A stretch of DNA of 64,000 bases. Source: Polaromonas sp. GTDB lineage: Bacteria; Pseudomonadota; Gammaproteobacteria; Burkholderiales; Burkholderiaceae_C. The translations under genes were made by a program, and so were the position numbers. Location: the NCBI RefSeq assembly GCF_029945895.1, contig NZ_JAQSDL010000008.1, positions 1 through 64,000 on the forward strand, read 5' to 3'. This document shows positions 10,214 through 20,666 of the stretch, in pieces. The notes beneath the pieces are model-generated. The model was not told where the DNA came from. It made no database searches and saw nothing but the letters and a program-made list of their open reading frames with translations. Position 1 is the first letter of the stretch; each line of letters opens with the position of its first letter.

Positions 10214-12991
10214 GTGACAGGTGCGCAGAAAAGAGGCCGGCGCGGCTGGCGCTCGGTCTGGCGAACCAGGACAAAAGGCGGGACGGACGTGGCCACATCA
10301 TCAAACAAGCGCAGGCAATTCTGGCAAGCCGACTGGTTTGTGGGTGTGCTTGTGGTACTTGCCGTACTTGCTCTGCACAGTGCGACCGACTTTTTTGCCA
10401 CGCTCGAGCGCCGGTATTACGACTTTGCCAGTACCAGCACGTCGCGCCAGCCCTCCGACCGCATTGCCATCATCGCGATCGACGACCAGAGCATCGCCAA
10501 CATTGGCCGCTGGCCGTGGCCGCGCGATGTGCATGCCCAGTTGATTGACCAGCTGGCTGCGGCGAAAGTCAAAACCATTGCGCATACCGCCTTCTTTTTT
10601 GAGCCACAGACCGACCGCGGGCTGGTGTTCATCCGCAAGATGAAGGAAGCGCTGGGATCGGCTGCCCTTCCAGTCGATCCCGCTGCTCCCCAGGACAGCC
10701 TCAACGCGCAGCTGGGCAAGGTGATTGCCGAAGCGGAGGTTGCATTGGACACGGACGCCAAGCTGGCCGCGAGCATGGCCAAAGCCGGCAATGTGCTGGT
10801 GCCCTCGGTTTTTGTGCTGGGTGAGCCACAGGGCAAGCCCGACCCTCTGCCCGCCTATGCCCTCAAAAGTGCGGTGGCGGAGCCGGGCGGGTTCTCGCTG
10901 CCTGCCCTTCGGGGCCAGCAGCCCATAGAGATCATCGGCAGCAGTGCGGCGGGCATCGCGCATTTGAACCAGCTGCCTGACGTGGACGGCGCGGTCCGGC
11001 AGGAGCCGCTGCTGATCAACTATGACGGCCAGGCGATTCCGTCCATGGGATTGCTCGCCGCAGTCAAGAGCCTGAACCTCGCCGCGACCGATATCAAGCT
11101 TAATGCCGGGGAATCAGTACAGATCGGCAAGTTGCGCATAGGCACCGATGAGGCGGCCCTGATGTTGCCTCAGTTCTACAAGGGCCGCGACGGCCGGCCG
11201 GCTTTCGCCGTGGACTCTTTCTATGACGTGTTGTCCGGCAAGATTCCAGCGGGAAAATACACCGACAAGATTGTGATTATTGGTGCCACTGCCGCCGGCG
11301 TCGGCACCCAATTTCCTACACCGGCCGGGCCCGGACTGTCCCCGGCGGAGACTATTGCCCACATCACTTCCAGCATCCTCAGTGAACACTTTCTTGTCCA
11401 GCCAGCCTGGGGTGTCTGGGCCACGCTGGGTGTCCTGCTGGTTGTGGCCGCTTACCTGATTGCTGGTCTACCGCGGCTGTCTGCGGGCAAGGCCGCCGTC
11501 ATTACGCTGCTGCTGTTTGTCATGCTGCTGGTGATCGAGTTCGGTCTGCTGTCGGCAGCCGCGACCTGGCTCAAGCTGGTATTTCCGGCCGCGCTGCTGG
11601 TGATCGGCCACCTGGCGTTGACCACCAAGCGTTTCCTGATGACCGAGGCCGGCAAGCTCAAGTCCGACGAAGAGTCAGCCGAAACCAACCGCATGATGGG
11701 CCTGGCCCTGCAGGGGCAGGGGCAACTCGACATGGCTTTCGACCGGTTTCGCCGCGTTCCTTTCACCGACGCGCTGATGGACAACATGAACAATCTGGCG
11801 CTTGATTTTGAGCGCAAGCGGCAATTCAACAAGGCCCAGGCGGTGTACGAATACATGGCCAGCTACAACAAGAATCACAAGGACCTGCAGTCCAGACTCA
11901 ATCGCGCGAAGAACCTCTCGGAAACCGTCATTCTGGGTGGTGGTGGAGCGCACCCCGGCGGAACCATGCTTCTCGACGGCGGTGGTGTCGAAAAGCCCAT
12001 GCTGGGCCGCTACCAGGTTGAAAAAGAACTGGGCAAAGGGGCCATGGGAGTGGTGTATCTGGGCAAGGACCCCAAGATCGGGCGTGTGGTGGCGATCAAG
12101 ACCATGGCCCTGAGCCAGGAGTTTGAGGGTGACGAGTTGACGGATGCCCGAGAGCGCTTTTTCCGCGAGGCCGAAACAGCAGGCCGCCTGCAACATCAGA
12201 ACATCGTGACCATTTTTGATGCCGGCGAAGAGCATGACCTGGCCTACATCGCGATGGAATTCCTCAAAGGCAAGGACTTGCTGGATGTCACCAAGGACGG
12301 GCAGTTGCTGCCAGTTTCCAAAGTGCTTTCAATTGTGGCGCGGGTTGCAGAGGCGTTGGCTTATGCGCACAAACAGAACGTGGTGCACCGCGACATCAAG
12401 CCGGCCAACATCATGTACGACCCCGACAGCGATACCGTCAAGGTGACCGACTTTGGCATTGCGCGCATCACCGACTCGAGCAAAACCAAGACCGGTCTGG
12501 TACTCGGTACCCCGAGTTTCATGTCGCCCGAGCAGATCGCGGGCAAGAAGGTTGATGGCCGTTCAGACCTCTATTCCCTGGGGGTGATGCTGTTCCAGAT
12601 GCTGGCGGGCGTCTTGCCTTTCCGCGGAGACTCCATGGCCGAGTTGATGTACAAGATCGCCAATGAACCGGCACCGGACATTCGCGTGATCCGCCAGGAG
12701 TTGTCGGCACGCCTGGCGGATATTGTGGCGCTGTCGCTGAGCAAAAAGCCTGAAATGCGGTATCAGGACGGCGACCAGTTTGCTGCCGATCTGCGTGCCG
12801 CCATTGTCGAGCTGTCGACCGTACCCACAGGCCTTCCGGTTCCCGCCGGTGCCATCACCCCAAGTCCCGAGGGCGGTGAAAAGACAGCGGTGTTCGCGGC
12901 GGGCGACAATCCTGCTTTTGCCCGCACCATTGCGGCCCCCTCCTTGCCGGATCCTTCGGCCGGCGTTGATGCTACAGATTTGAAGCCATAA
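10214..12991 (+). CDS. CHASE2-domain transmembrane serine/threonine protein kinase
   Basis: A 925-residue receptor kinase. Residues about 40-60 are the first membrane segment. The extracytoplasmic CHASE2 sensor follows, with signature IAIIAIDDQSIANIGRWPWP (about 85-105) and DKIVIIGATAAGVGTQFPTP (about 350-370). Three further helices lie at about 395-475, then a TPR-like linker, then a Hanks-type kinase domain from about 598 to 870. GKGAMGVVYLG, VAIK, HRDIKPAN and DFGIA are all intact, so it should be active. The C-terminal tail is Thr/Pro-rich and could carry autophosphorylation sites for the FHA protein two genes on. The GTG at 10289 is an alternative start. It is the first gene of the signalling cassette; the PP2C gene begins 10 bp downstream. 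Confidence 0.93.
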   Translation: MTGAQKRGRRGWRSVWRTRTKGGTDVATSSNKRRQFWQADWFVGVLVVLAVLALHSATDFFATLERRYYDFASTSTSRQPSDRIAIIAIDDQSIANIGRWPWPRDVHAQLIDQLAAAKVKTIAHTAFFFEPQTDRGLVFIRKMKEALGSAALPVDPAAPQDSLNAQLGKVIAEAEVALDTDAKLAASMAKAGNVLVPSVFVLGEPQGKPDPLPAYALKSAVAEPGGFSLPALRGQQPIEIIGSSAAGIAHLNQLPDVDGAVRQEPLLINYDGQAIPSMGLLAAVKSLNLAATDIKLNAGESVQIGKLRIGTDEAALMLPQFYKGRDGRPAFAVDSFYDVLSGKIPAGKYTDKIVIIGATAAGVGTQFPTPAGPGLSPAETIAHITSSILSEHFLVQPAWGVWATLGVLLVVAAYLIAGLPRLSAGKAAVITLLLFVMLLVIEFGLLSAAATWLKLVFPAALLVIGHLALTTKRFLMTEAGKLKSDEESAETNRMMGLALQGQGQLDMAFDRFRRVPFTDALMDNMNNLALDFERKRQFNKAQAVYEYMASYNKNHKDLQSRLNRAKNLSETVILGGGGAHPGGTMLLDGGGVEKPMLGRYQVEKELGKGAMGVVYLGKDPKIGRVVAIKTMALSQEFEGDELTDARERFFREAETAGRLQHQNIVTIFDAGEEHDLAYIAMEFLKGKDLLDVTKDGQLLPVSKVLSIVARVAEALAYAHKQNVVHRDIKPANIMYDPDSDTVKVTDFGIARITDSSKTKTGLVLGTPSFMSPEQIAGKKVDGRSDLYSLGVMLFQMLAGVLPFRGDSMAELMYKIANEPAPDIRVIRQELSARLADIVALSLSKKPEMRYQDGDQFAADLRAAIVELSTVPTGLPVPAGAITPSPEGGEKTAVFAAGDNPAFARTIAAPSLPDPSAGVDATDLKP

Positions 12992-13001
12992 CAAAAACAC
13001 G

Positions 13002-20138: not shown

Positions 20139-20174
20139 GAATGGTTCCGCTAGTTTCTCAACCAAGGAGTTTTT

Positions 20175-20666
20175 ATGAAGCGTTCCATGCAAAAGGGTTT
20201 TACCCTGATCGAGTTGATGATCGTTGTCGCGATTATTGGTATTTTGGCTGCGGTGGCTTTGCCTGCATATCAGGACTATACGGTCCGTGCAAAGATGTCC
20301 GAGGTTATTTTGGCTGCATCGGCCTGCCGAACCAGTGTGACGGAGACGCGCCAGACAAACAATGCGGCGTCCATGCCAACCGCTGGTAACTGGGGCTGTG
20401 AATCTTCAACATCCACGAGCAAATATGTTAGTTCGGTTCAGACTGATAATTTTGGCGCGATTAACGTCCTAGTTAACACTGCCAATCTCTCGCAAGTTAC
20501 GGGTTCTGTTTACCTAATTCCAACGCTGTCCGGCGGTACTACTGGTAACATTACTGGCTGGGAATGCGGACCAAGCGTTGTAGGGATTGGGAAGTACCTT
20601 CCTGGTTCATGCCGCAGTGCTATCGCAACTGCTTACACCGTTGCAGGTTCTTGGGATGCAAATTAA
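20175..20666 (+). CDS. pilA: Type IV pilin (PilA-like)
   Basis: A 163-residue prepilin. The leader MKRSMQKG is cut before phenylalanine by prepilin peptidase, followed by the class IVa helix FTLIELMIVVAIIGILAAVA with Glu5 of the mature protein present. The globular domain has four cysteines (in SACRT, NWGCES, WECGPS and PGSCRS) that can form two disulfides; the last pair bounds the C-terminal D-loop seen in PilA. It is Ser/Thr-rich, and two oligosaccharyl-transferase-like genes follow, so it is probably glycosylated. It has its own sigma-54 promoter and terminator. Base composition is visibly more AT-rich than in the neighbours. Confidence 0.95.
   Translation: MKRSMQKGFTLIELMIVVAIIGILAAVALPAYQDYTVRAKMSEVILAASACRTSVTETRQTNNAASMPTAGNWGCESSTSTSKYVSSVQTDNFGAINVLVNTANLSQVTGSVYLIPTLSGGTTGNITGWECGPSVVGIGKYLPGSCRSAIATAYTVAGSWDAN

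Follow-up and report, generated by a model that had tools for sequence, protein, structure and literature searches.

The DNA analysed here is a 64,000-nucleotide stretch of a Polaromonas sp. genome (contig NZ_JAQSDL010000008.1, positions 1 to 64,000 of the forward strand), hereafter the window. It carries a cassette of six consecutive signalling genes, the last of which encodes an ATPase with a GAF domain, directly upstream of a type IV pilin gene. An earlier reading of the letters alone (the original prediction) had placed the six genes and the pilin on the plus strand, and this layout was borne out as follows:

10214-12991, plus strand: CHASE2 Ser/Thr kinase (CHASE2 about 10355-11455, kinase domain about 12011-12763; alternative in-frame GTG start at 10289)
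13002-13787, plus strand: PP2C Ser/Thr phosphatase of the Stp1 type (NCBIfam NF033484)
13828-14487, plus strand: FHA protein of the phosphothreonine-binding type (PF00498, E 8.1e-25)
14551-16800, plus strand: CHASE2 class III adenylate cyclase (CHASE2 about 14626-15717, cyclase domain about 16015-16545)
16835-17626, plus strand: metallo-hydrolase of the class II cyclic-nucleotide phosphodiesterase type (Lactamase_B_2, PDEase_II, THSHLDH motif)
17623-20028, plus strand: GAF-MshEN-T2SSE ATPase, an extra PilB-class motor (T2SSE E 4.6e-115, GAF E 6.1e-11)
17767-18207, plus strand: GAF domain of the ATPase (Pfam stretch, residues 49-195)
20123-20138, plus strand: sigma-54-type promoter of the pilin, TGGCACGGTATCTGCT (pattern scan)
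20175-20666, plus strand: type IV pilin of the PilA type (PF00114 E 2.5e-11, N_methyl E 2.2e-10)

The six genes are separated by 10, 40, 63, 34 and -4 nucleotides, the last being an ATGA overlap, and a further 146 nucleotides lead to the pilin. Two terminator-like sites were found on the plus strand between 9900 and 21000, both within the cyclase gene and none in the gaps. Small gaps free of such sites are what one operon of the six genes would show. The pilin is probably transcribed separately, since it has its own sigma-54-type site and is followed by a hairpin with a T run (about 20724-20754, seen by eye and absent from the listing of the terminator scan). The -24/-12 site is the single match in 64 kb, where shuffled sequences average 0.13, for a pattern that was loosened at one base to fit it.

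The enzymes that would write and erase both signals are present, as had been claimed, and their catalytic residues are intact and nearly invariant among the aligned relatives. The kinase matches CHASE2 (E 7.6e-52) and Pkinase (E 7.4e-55) in Pfam, and its K629, D727, K729, N732 and the DFG aspartate D746 are kept in 68/68 relatives. The phosphatase scores 247.8 bits against NF033484 (Stp1/IreP; cut-off 230), with its metal Asp residues conserved in every relative covering them (88 or 91 of 91), and the FHA protein keeps R27, S41, H44 and N63 in 87/87. The cyclase matches CHASE2 (PF05226, E 3.1e-57) and PF00211 (E 1e-23, 84.3 bits versus 21.9), and its closest relatives in the PDB are adenylate cyclases. 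The residues checked were D499, K539, D543, D617, N620 and R624; those which we take to be the metal Asp pair and the adenine-selecting Lys/Asp pair are kept in 74-77 of 77 relatives. For the phosphodiesterase, the match to PF02112 (46.4 bits, gathering threshold 23.7) spans residues 45-103 only, and the protein falls under the cut-off of NF041851, a family of cyclic-nucleotide-degrading phosphodiesterases (27.3 versus 400 bits). Yeast PDE1 is its top match in three methods, and the metal-site residues H53, H55, D57, H58, H138, D159 and H222 are present in 93/93 relatives. The CHASE2 domains of the kinase and the cyclase are homologous (26.5% identity over 381 amino acids); the suggestion that one envelope cue is read twice is compatible with two such domains on genes that mostly occur, or are missing, as a pair.

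The arrangement recurs throughout the order Burkholderiales. With the ATPase as query, matches at E<=1e-200 were found in 148 of 399 genomes and 63 of 159 genera; among the matches listed, the nearest named homologues are from Polaromonas, and a homologue is also listed for Polaromonas sp. JS666. Neighbouring genes were mapped in 120 loci, namely 40 loci from 30 families and 80 named loci. The former represent 39 genomes and all 30 families with such a match, picked for spread and long contigs (two of the genomes, G004 and G017, came from a separate search). The latter are the best 80 of 586 confirmed stretches, include Rhodoferax, Ramlibacter, Azospira, Sulfurisoma, Chitinimonas and Gallionella, and may overlap the genomes of the 40-locus set; the 120 loci are thus not independent, and the Fisher test values given below ignore kinship. 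At least 9.4 kb of upstream sequence was available for 90 loci; among these, the phosphatase was present in 78, the FHA protein in 79, the phosphodiesterase in 71, the kinase in 61 and the cyclase in 60. All six genes were complete in 52 of the 90, and the relative order of the window, intervening genes being ignored, was kept in 52/52, so that the arrangement is far beyond chance. Complete arrays came from 16 of the 30 families of the 40-locus set. Conservation well beyond close relatives, on which the original prediction depended, is thereby established, and the recurrence of the cassette across genomes, families and loci rules out a merely local oddity. Searches of the open-licence PMC literature listed no paper recognisable as a description of it. 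Two loci with a typical array of this order have titles that may be wrong (L118, titled Mycobacteriaceae, and L138, titled Bordetella parapertussis and metagenome-assembled).

Two further genes join many arrays and are both absent from that of the window; their domains were identified in loci L043 and L054. A cyclic-nucleotide-binding/rhodanese gene lies between the phosphodiesterase and the ATPase in 18/90 loci and supports a cyclic-nucleotide currency, whereas a GAF-HD-GYP gene, found near the ATPase and mostly right after it in 52/90, suggests a link to cyclic di-GMP (c-di-GMP). Downstream, a same-strand pilin with a recognisable start was seen in 65/120 loci, some of which are short of downstream DNA. 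Sites scoring at least 10/12 precede pilA in 50 of 65 loci of relatives, 50-107 bases before the start codon. The claim that the pilin has a sigma-54 promoter of its own is therefore upheld as far as a recurrent sigma-54-type site can indicate one.

The array frequently lies between sucCD/terC and pilA. Such flanks, seen in many loci, imply that the place itself is old, and the array could be an old pilin-locus neighbourhood held together by linkage to sucCD and terC, with no functional circuit. We consider this highly improbable. Intact arrays occur with neither sucCD nor terC in view (e.g. L054, L056 and L058), and the genes come and go in functional pairs. Over the 90 loci, phosphatase and FHA protein were both present in 78, the phosphatase alone in 0, the FHA protein alone in 1 and neither in 11 (p=2.9e-13); cyclase and phosphodiesterase were both present in 57, with 3 loci having only the cyclase, 14 only the phosphodiesterase and 16 neither (p=3.6e-7); the corresponding figures for kinase and cyclase are 55 with both, 6 with the kinase only, 5 with the cyclase only and 24 with neither (p=1e-11). 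Moreover, the phosphodiesterase, counted anywhere in the genome, tracks the ATPase: 134 of the 148 genomes with the ATPase have it versus 84 of the 251 others, leaving 14 genomes with the ATPase only and 167 with neither, in a count from genome lists transcribed by hand.

We read the cassette as a regulatory unit at a pilin locus, in which the GAF-ATPase is a third pilus motor, likely gated by cyclic AMP (cAMP), and an envelope signal would act through cAMP; we put the probability of this reading at roughly 0.55. It builds on features legible in the DNA, namely the content, order and recurrence of the array, its intact catalytic sites, the GAF domain with cyclic-nucleotide-type residues on a PilB-class ATPase distinct from PilB and TfpB, and the sigma-54-type site.

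The ATPase belongs to the PilB class (T2SSE PF00437, 384.7 bits). Its Walker A motif (residues 532-539, GPTGSGKT) is invariant in 41 rows and the Walker B region (594-602) mostly so. Three established identities were ruled out. Against the PilB model TIGR02538 it scores 468.1 bits (cut-off 675.65) versus 800.3 for the PilB of the same genome; against the TfpB model NF053534 it scores 392.6 (cut-off 850) versus 891.1 for the TfpB of that genome; and against the GspE model TIGR02533 it reaches 439.8 of the required 630.25. A tree built on the ATPase part sets the GAF-ATPases, together with their kin, apart from PilB and TfpB (support 100/99; only three outgroup rows, with long branches). The canonical pilB of the host genome is adjoined at its 3' side by a PilC/GspF-type gene (locus L192), whereas pilC is not among the cassette genes. 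The host TfpB lies at L193:3626-5428 (contig C84), so that this Polaromonas-type genome has PilB, TfpB and the GAF-ATPase. Between its GAF and motor parts, the ATPase shows a weak MshEN match (PF05157, 31.4 bits, gathering threshold 23.1). MshEN domains that act as c-di-GMP receptors carry an RLG-type ligand motif at their start; at this position the window has TKYD, and K212, Y213 and D214 dominate 121 rows, so that in a register set by eye the RLG-type motif seems to be missing. Pili are the likely output, since pilM was found in 25 of 26 genomes with the GAF-ATPase.

Part of the case for cAMP lies in the GAF domain. Its top match in a profile search of the PDB is the cAMP-binding CyaB2 (1ykd), and the next are mostly cyclic-nucleotide phosphodiesterases. 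The ligand contacts of CyaB2 include Arg291, Thr293, Ile308, Thr309, Asp356 and Asn359 (PMC4411481, in excerpt). Arg291 corresponds to R68 (119/119 rows), Thr293 to T70 (117/119), Ile308 to V85 (mostly V/I, hydrophobic in 118/119) and Asp356 to D140 (120/120), while R68, K86, D140, Q166, N169 and F176 are conserved in all rows covering them. Judged by these residues, the ligand pocket predicted from the sequence appears indeed to be of the cyclic-nucleotide type. The AlphaFold2 model of the domain has a confidence (pLDDT) of 90.8. As for the nucleotide, cAMP is preferred to cGMP because of the cyclase residues and the nearest GAF relative, CyaB2. A search with the GAF part at E<=1e-20 matched 4930 clusters, of which the best 120 are all ATPases of the GAF-ATPase type, and those with a name are called no more than something general, for instance "GspE/PulE family protein"; the clusters beyond these may include other GAF proteins.

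Several observations weigh against this reading, and we gather them in this and the following paragraphs. The gap in E-value between CyaB2 (1.4e-37) and PDE5 (4.4e-18) is partly inflated because CyaB2 carries two GAF domains. Scored by single domain, CyaB2 GAF-B (71.6 bits) is followed closely by 4mcw (68.2), a GAF-HD-GYP protein without cyclic-nucleotide annotation, and then by PDE2A (63.5) and PDE10A (62.2). Thr309 and Asn359 are replaced by the invariant Lys86 and by Ser/Thr143, both being contacts of CyaB2 itself rather than positions shown to define the GAF class. The NKFDE motif is partly kept, with N169 and F176 invariant, the Lys shifted by one position (K/R in 106/121) and the acidic end variable across the 121 rows. 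In a fold search with the GAF model, PtsP GAF domains scored at least as high as those of cyclic-nucleotide receptors and phosphodiesterases, so that the ligand is not readable from the fold alone, and cGMP-type GAF domains are also near relatives. As to the output, pilM is common anyway, being found in 23 of 30 genomes without the GAF-ATPase.

Coupling of the GAF domain to the local cyclase appears looser than a closed circuit would imply. The pocket, compared by eye in 107 judgeable loci, is nearly as well kept in the 32 that lack the cyclase locally as in the 75 that have it; the 32 have at least 7 kb upstream, and one of the loci, L047, has a cyclase fragment only. The erosion of the pocket expected upon loss of the local cyclase was not seen in these 32 loci, where L045, L072, L073 and L127 show single-position changes, and strict local coupling is weakened accordingly. 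In addition, erasers outlast writers, with the phosphodiesterase kept without the cyclase in 14/90 loci and the phosphatase without the kinase in 17/90. The self-containment that the original prediction attributed to the module is thus weakened. A class III cyclase was nonetheless found in all 26 tested genomes with the ATPase versus 16 of 30 ATPase-less genomes taken in handle order; 15 of the 26 lack a cyclase at the locus and have one elsewhere (for one of them only 6.3 kb upstream was covered). In such loci the messenger would likely come from a class III cyclase encoded elsewhere in the genome.

The same pocket comparison bears on the possibility that the phosphorylation arm controls the motor, the FHA protein binding phosphothreonine on the ATPase or a stator and the GAF domain being structural or differently liganded. 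Next to the ATPase, phosphatase and FHA protein are commoner than cyclase and phosphodiesterase (78 and 79 versus 60 and 71 of 90), the pocket is not visibly eroded where the local cyclase is gone, and three Rhodoferax loci (L085, L094 and L096) have kinase, phosphatase, FHA protein and ATPase and lack both cyclase and phosphodiesterase; the GAF pocket is retained in such loci. Against this possibility, the pocket residues are like those of cyclic-nucleotide GAF domains, and the FHA arm is also retained in some ATPase-less genomes. Relatives outside the order speak to the same point. Sixteen loci were examined there for ancestral context, 10 with a GAF domain and 6 without. The 10 GAF-ATPases are 39-43% identical to that of the window and keep most pocket residues (R68, D140, Q166, N169 and F176 in 10/10, K86 in 9), although no FHA arm lies nearby. 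Taken together, we find control through phosphorylation distinctly unlikely. The absence of relatives of the kinase, phosphatase, FHA protein and phosphodiesterase within about 9 kb in all 10 of these loci counts at the same time against the cAMP-gated unit that we prefer.

In one of these outside loci, a CHASE2 protein adjoins the GAF-ATPase (L200:11492-13720, minus strand), 37% identical to the window cyclase over 739 amino acids and without a match to PF00211; it is possibly a degenerate cyclase. A weak cyclase-domain match was seen in L201 and a GAF-HD-GYP relative in L199-L201. In L205-L210, from the same class outside the order, the motor part is about 50% identical to the window ATPase and has no GAF domain. 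Four of them were scanned with Pfam; MshEN matches much more strongly in all four, and in two of these it is preceded by a weak DUF4388-like match. Set beside the GAF-ATPases, these proteins may be read as sensor swapping on one motor.

The loci without an ATPase raise the question of what the cassette acts upon. Fourteen such loci were hand-picked, mostly as high scorers, from the 84 genomes with the phosphodiesterase only, and in 8 of them pilA lies on the same strand downstream of the whole or part of the cassette with no intervening ATPase. In four loci of the window's family (L178, L179, L180 and L187), the phosphodiesterase is directly followed by the pilin. The earlier proposal of the ATPase as the obligatory output is weakened by these genomes; since the cassette precedes pilA there without it, what the cassette constantly acts upon may be the pilin locus and not the GAF-ATPase, with the motor as one reader. 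Three other loci (L181, L182 and L190) have the cyclic-nucleotide part only, beside an oppositely oriented pilin: L181 has phosphodiesterase and cyclase, and L182 phosphodiesterase and a cyclic-nucleotide-binding/rhodanese gene. The cAMP half of the cassette can therefore exist alone.

Perhaps, then, the cassette mainly sets pilin expression or pilus number by transcription, using the sigma-54 promoter of pilA and a reader of the Crp type, the GAF-ATPase being a dispensable reader. Besides the 8 loci just described, the cyclic-nucleotide-binding protein encoded in 18/90 arrays would fit such a role, and cAMP is described as acting on pili in Pseudomonas by way of transcription under Vfr (PMC11656802, in excerpt) and in Synechocystis by way of the Sycrp regulators (PMC7690835, in excerpt). 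However, the Pfam hits of the cyclic-nucleotide-binding/rhodanese protein of L043 include no DNA-binding domain, the array of the window lacks a cyclic-nucleotide-binding gene, and the ATPase shows a strong association with both the phosphodiesterase and the remaining array. We regard this explanation as unlikely, while taking it seriously.

The preferred reading, that of a cAMP-gated third motor, can be put as a sequence of steps. The CHASE2 cyclase would produce cAMP in response to an envelope cue; cAMP binding to the GAF domain would raise or recruit motor activity, leading to pilus extension beyond that given by PilB alone; and the metallo-phosphodiesterase would terminate the signal. The CHASE2 kinase, phosphatase and FHA protein may form a second arm, in which phosphothreonine-dependent docking would set where or when the motor or a partner engages. 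In many other families, the cyclic-nucleotide-binding/rhodanese and GAF-HD-GYP proteins may act as additional readers. The circuit as first proposed thus survives in part: its conservation, its pocket as judged by residues and its paired writers and erasers stand, whereas its self-containment, the ATPase as obligatory output and the meeting of both arms at the GAF domain are weakened or find no support. For the last, no evidence ties the kinase/phosphatase/FHA arm to the GAF domain, and how the FHA arm would couple to the motor is a guess, which again counts against the reading. A broader view is tentative, and we would place it somewhat below even odds: a pilin-locus island whose extension motor would itself read cAMP through a phosphodiesterase-type GAF domain, parallel to the kinase-phosphatase-FHA arm and, in many families, to a cyclic-nucleotide-binding/rhodanese and a GAF-HD-GYP protein, with three currencies (cAMP, phosphothreonine and c-di-GMP) bearing on one filament.

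Directly 3' of the pilin, in the flank outside the cassette (20757-24016), lies a tandem pair of genes that suggests possible pilin glycosylation:

20757-22472 and 22469-24016, plus strand: two PglL/Wzy-type genes (Wzy_C, Wzy_C_2, PglL_A)

If the reading is true, a cAMP-type receptor built into the motor would be a direct and fast route from signal to filament, and would suggest a role for the large protein group to which these generally named ATPases belong. The widespread array also offers natural presence/absence variants for asking why bacteria keep several PilB-class motors.

Among known systems, threonine phosphorylation together with an Fha protein reportedly switches the secretion machine in type VI secretion. 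The cassette resembles that pathway in having threonine phosphorylation and an FHA protein beside a secretion-type machine, and differs in that it has no type VI genes, is adjoined by a pilin and a PilB-class ATPase, and has a cyclic-nucleotide arm interleaved. TfpB is a second extension motor of Acinetobacter baylyi (PMC8213720, in excerpt). Like it, the window ATPase is an extra PilB-class motor encoded apart from pilB-pilC, PilB being present in the genome as well; the term GAF is absent from the main text of that paper. Unlike TfpB, it falls far under the TfpB cut-off and its host has a separate TfpB. In Ramlibacter tataouinensis, three PilB paralogs are described with one pilus machinery, and the six-gene array goes unmentioned in the excerpted text (PMC3164672). 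Anabaena CyaB2, with tandem cAMP-binding GAF domains controlling a cyclase (PMC4411481, in excerpt), is the best-scoring solved relative of the window GAF, with 4 of 6 contact positions the same or similar; here the domain sits on a pilus-type ATPase rather than a cyclase, with Lys and Ser/Thr in place of Thr309 and Asn359. According to an excerpt of PMC11656802, the MshE/PilB motors of Vibrio, Myxococcus and Clostridium are gated by c-di-GMP through MshEN, and second-messenger control of the pilus motor is described for c-di-GMP, whereas cAMP is described as acting through transcription. The window ATPase would share with these motors the action of a second messenger on the N-terminal domain of a PilB-class extension ATPase, yet it adds a cyclic-nucleotide-type GAF before a weak MshEN (TKYD), and its predicted messenger is cAMP. 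Similarly, the Pil-Chp/CyaB/Vfr system of Pseudomonas has an adenylate cyclase serving type IV pilus control; its reader Vfr is transcriptional (PMC11656802, same excerpt), whereas the predicted reader here would be built into the motor protein itself.

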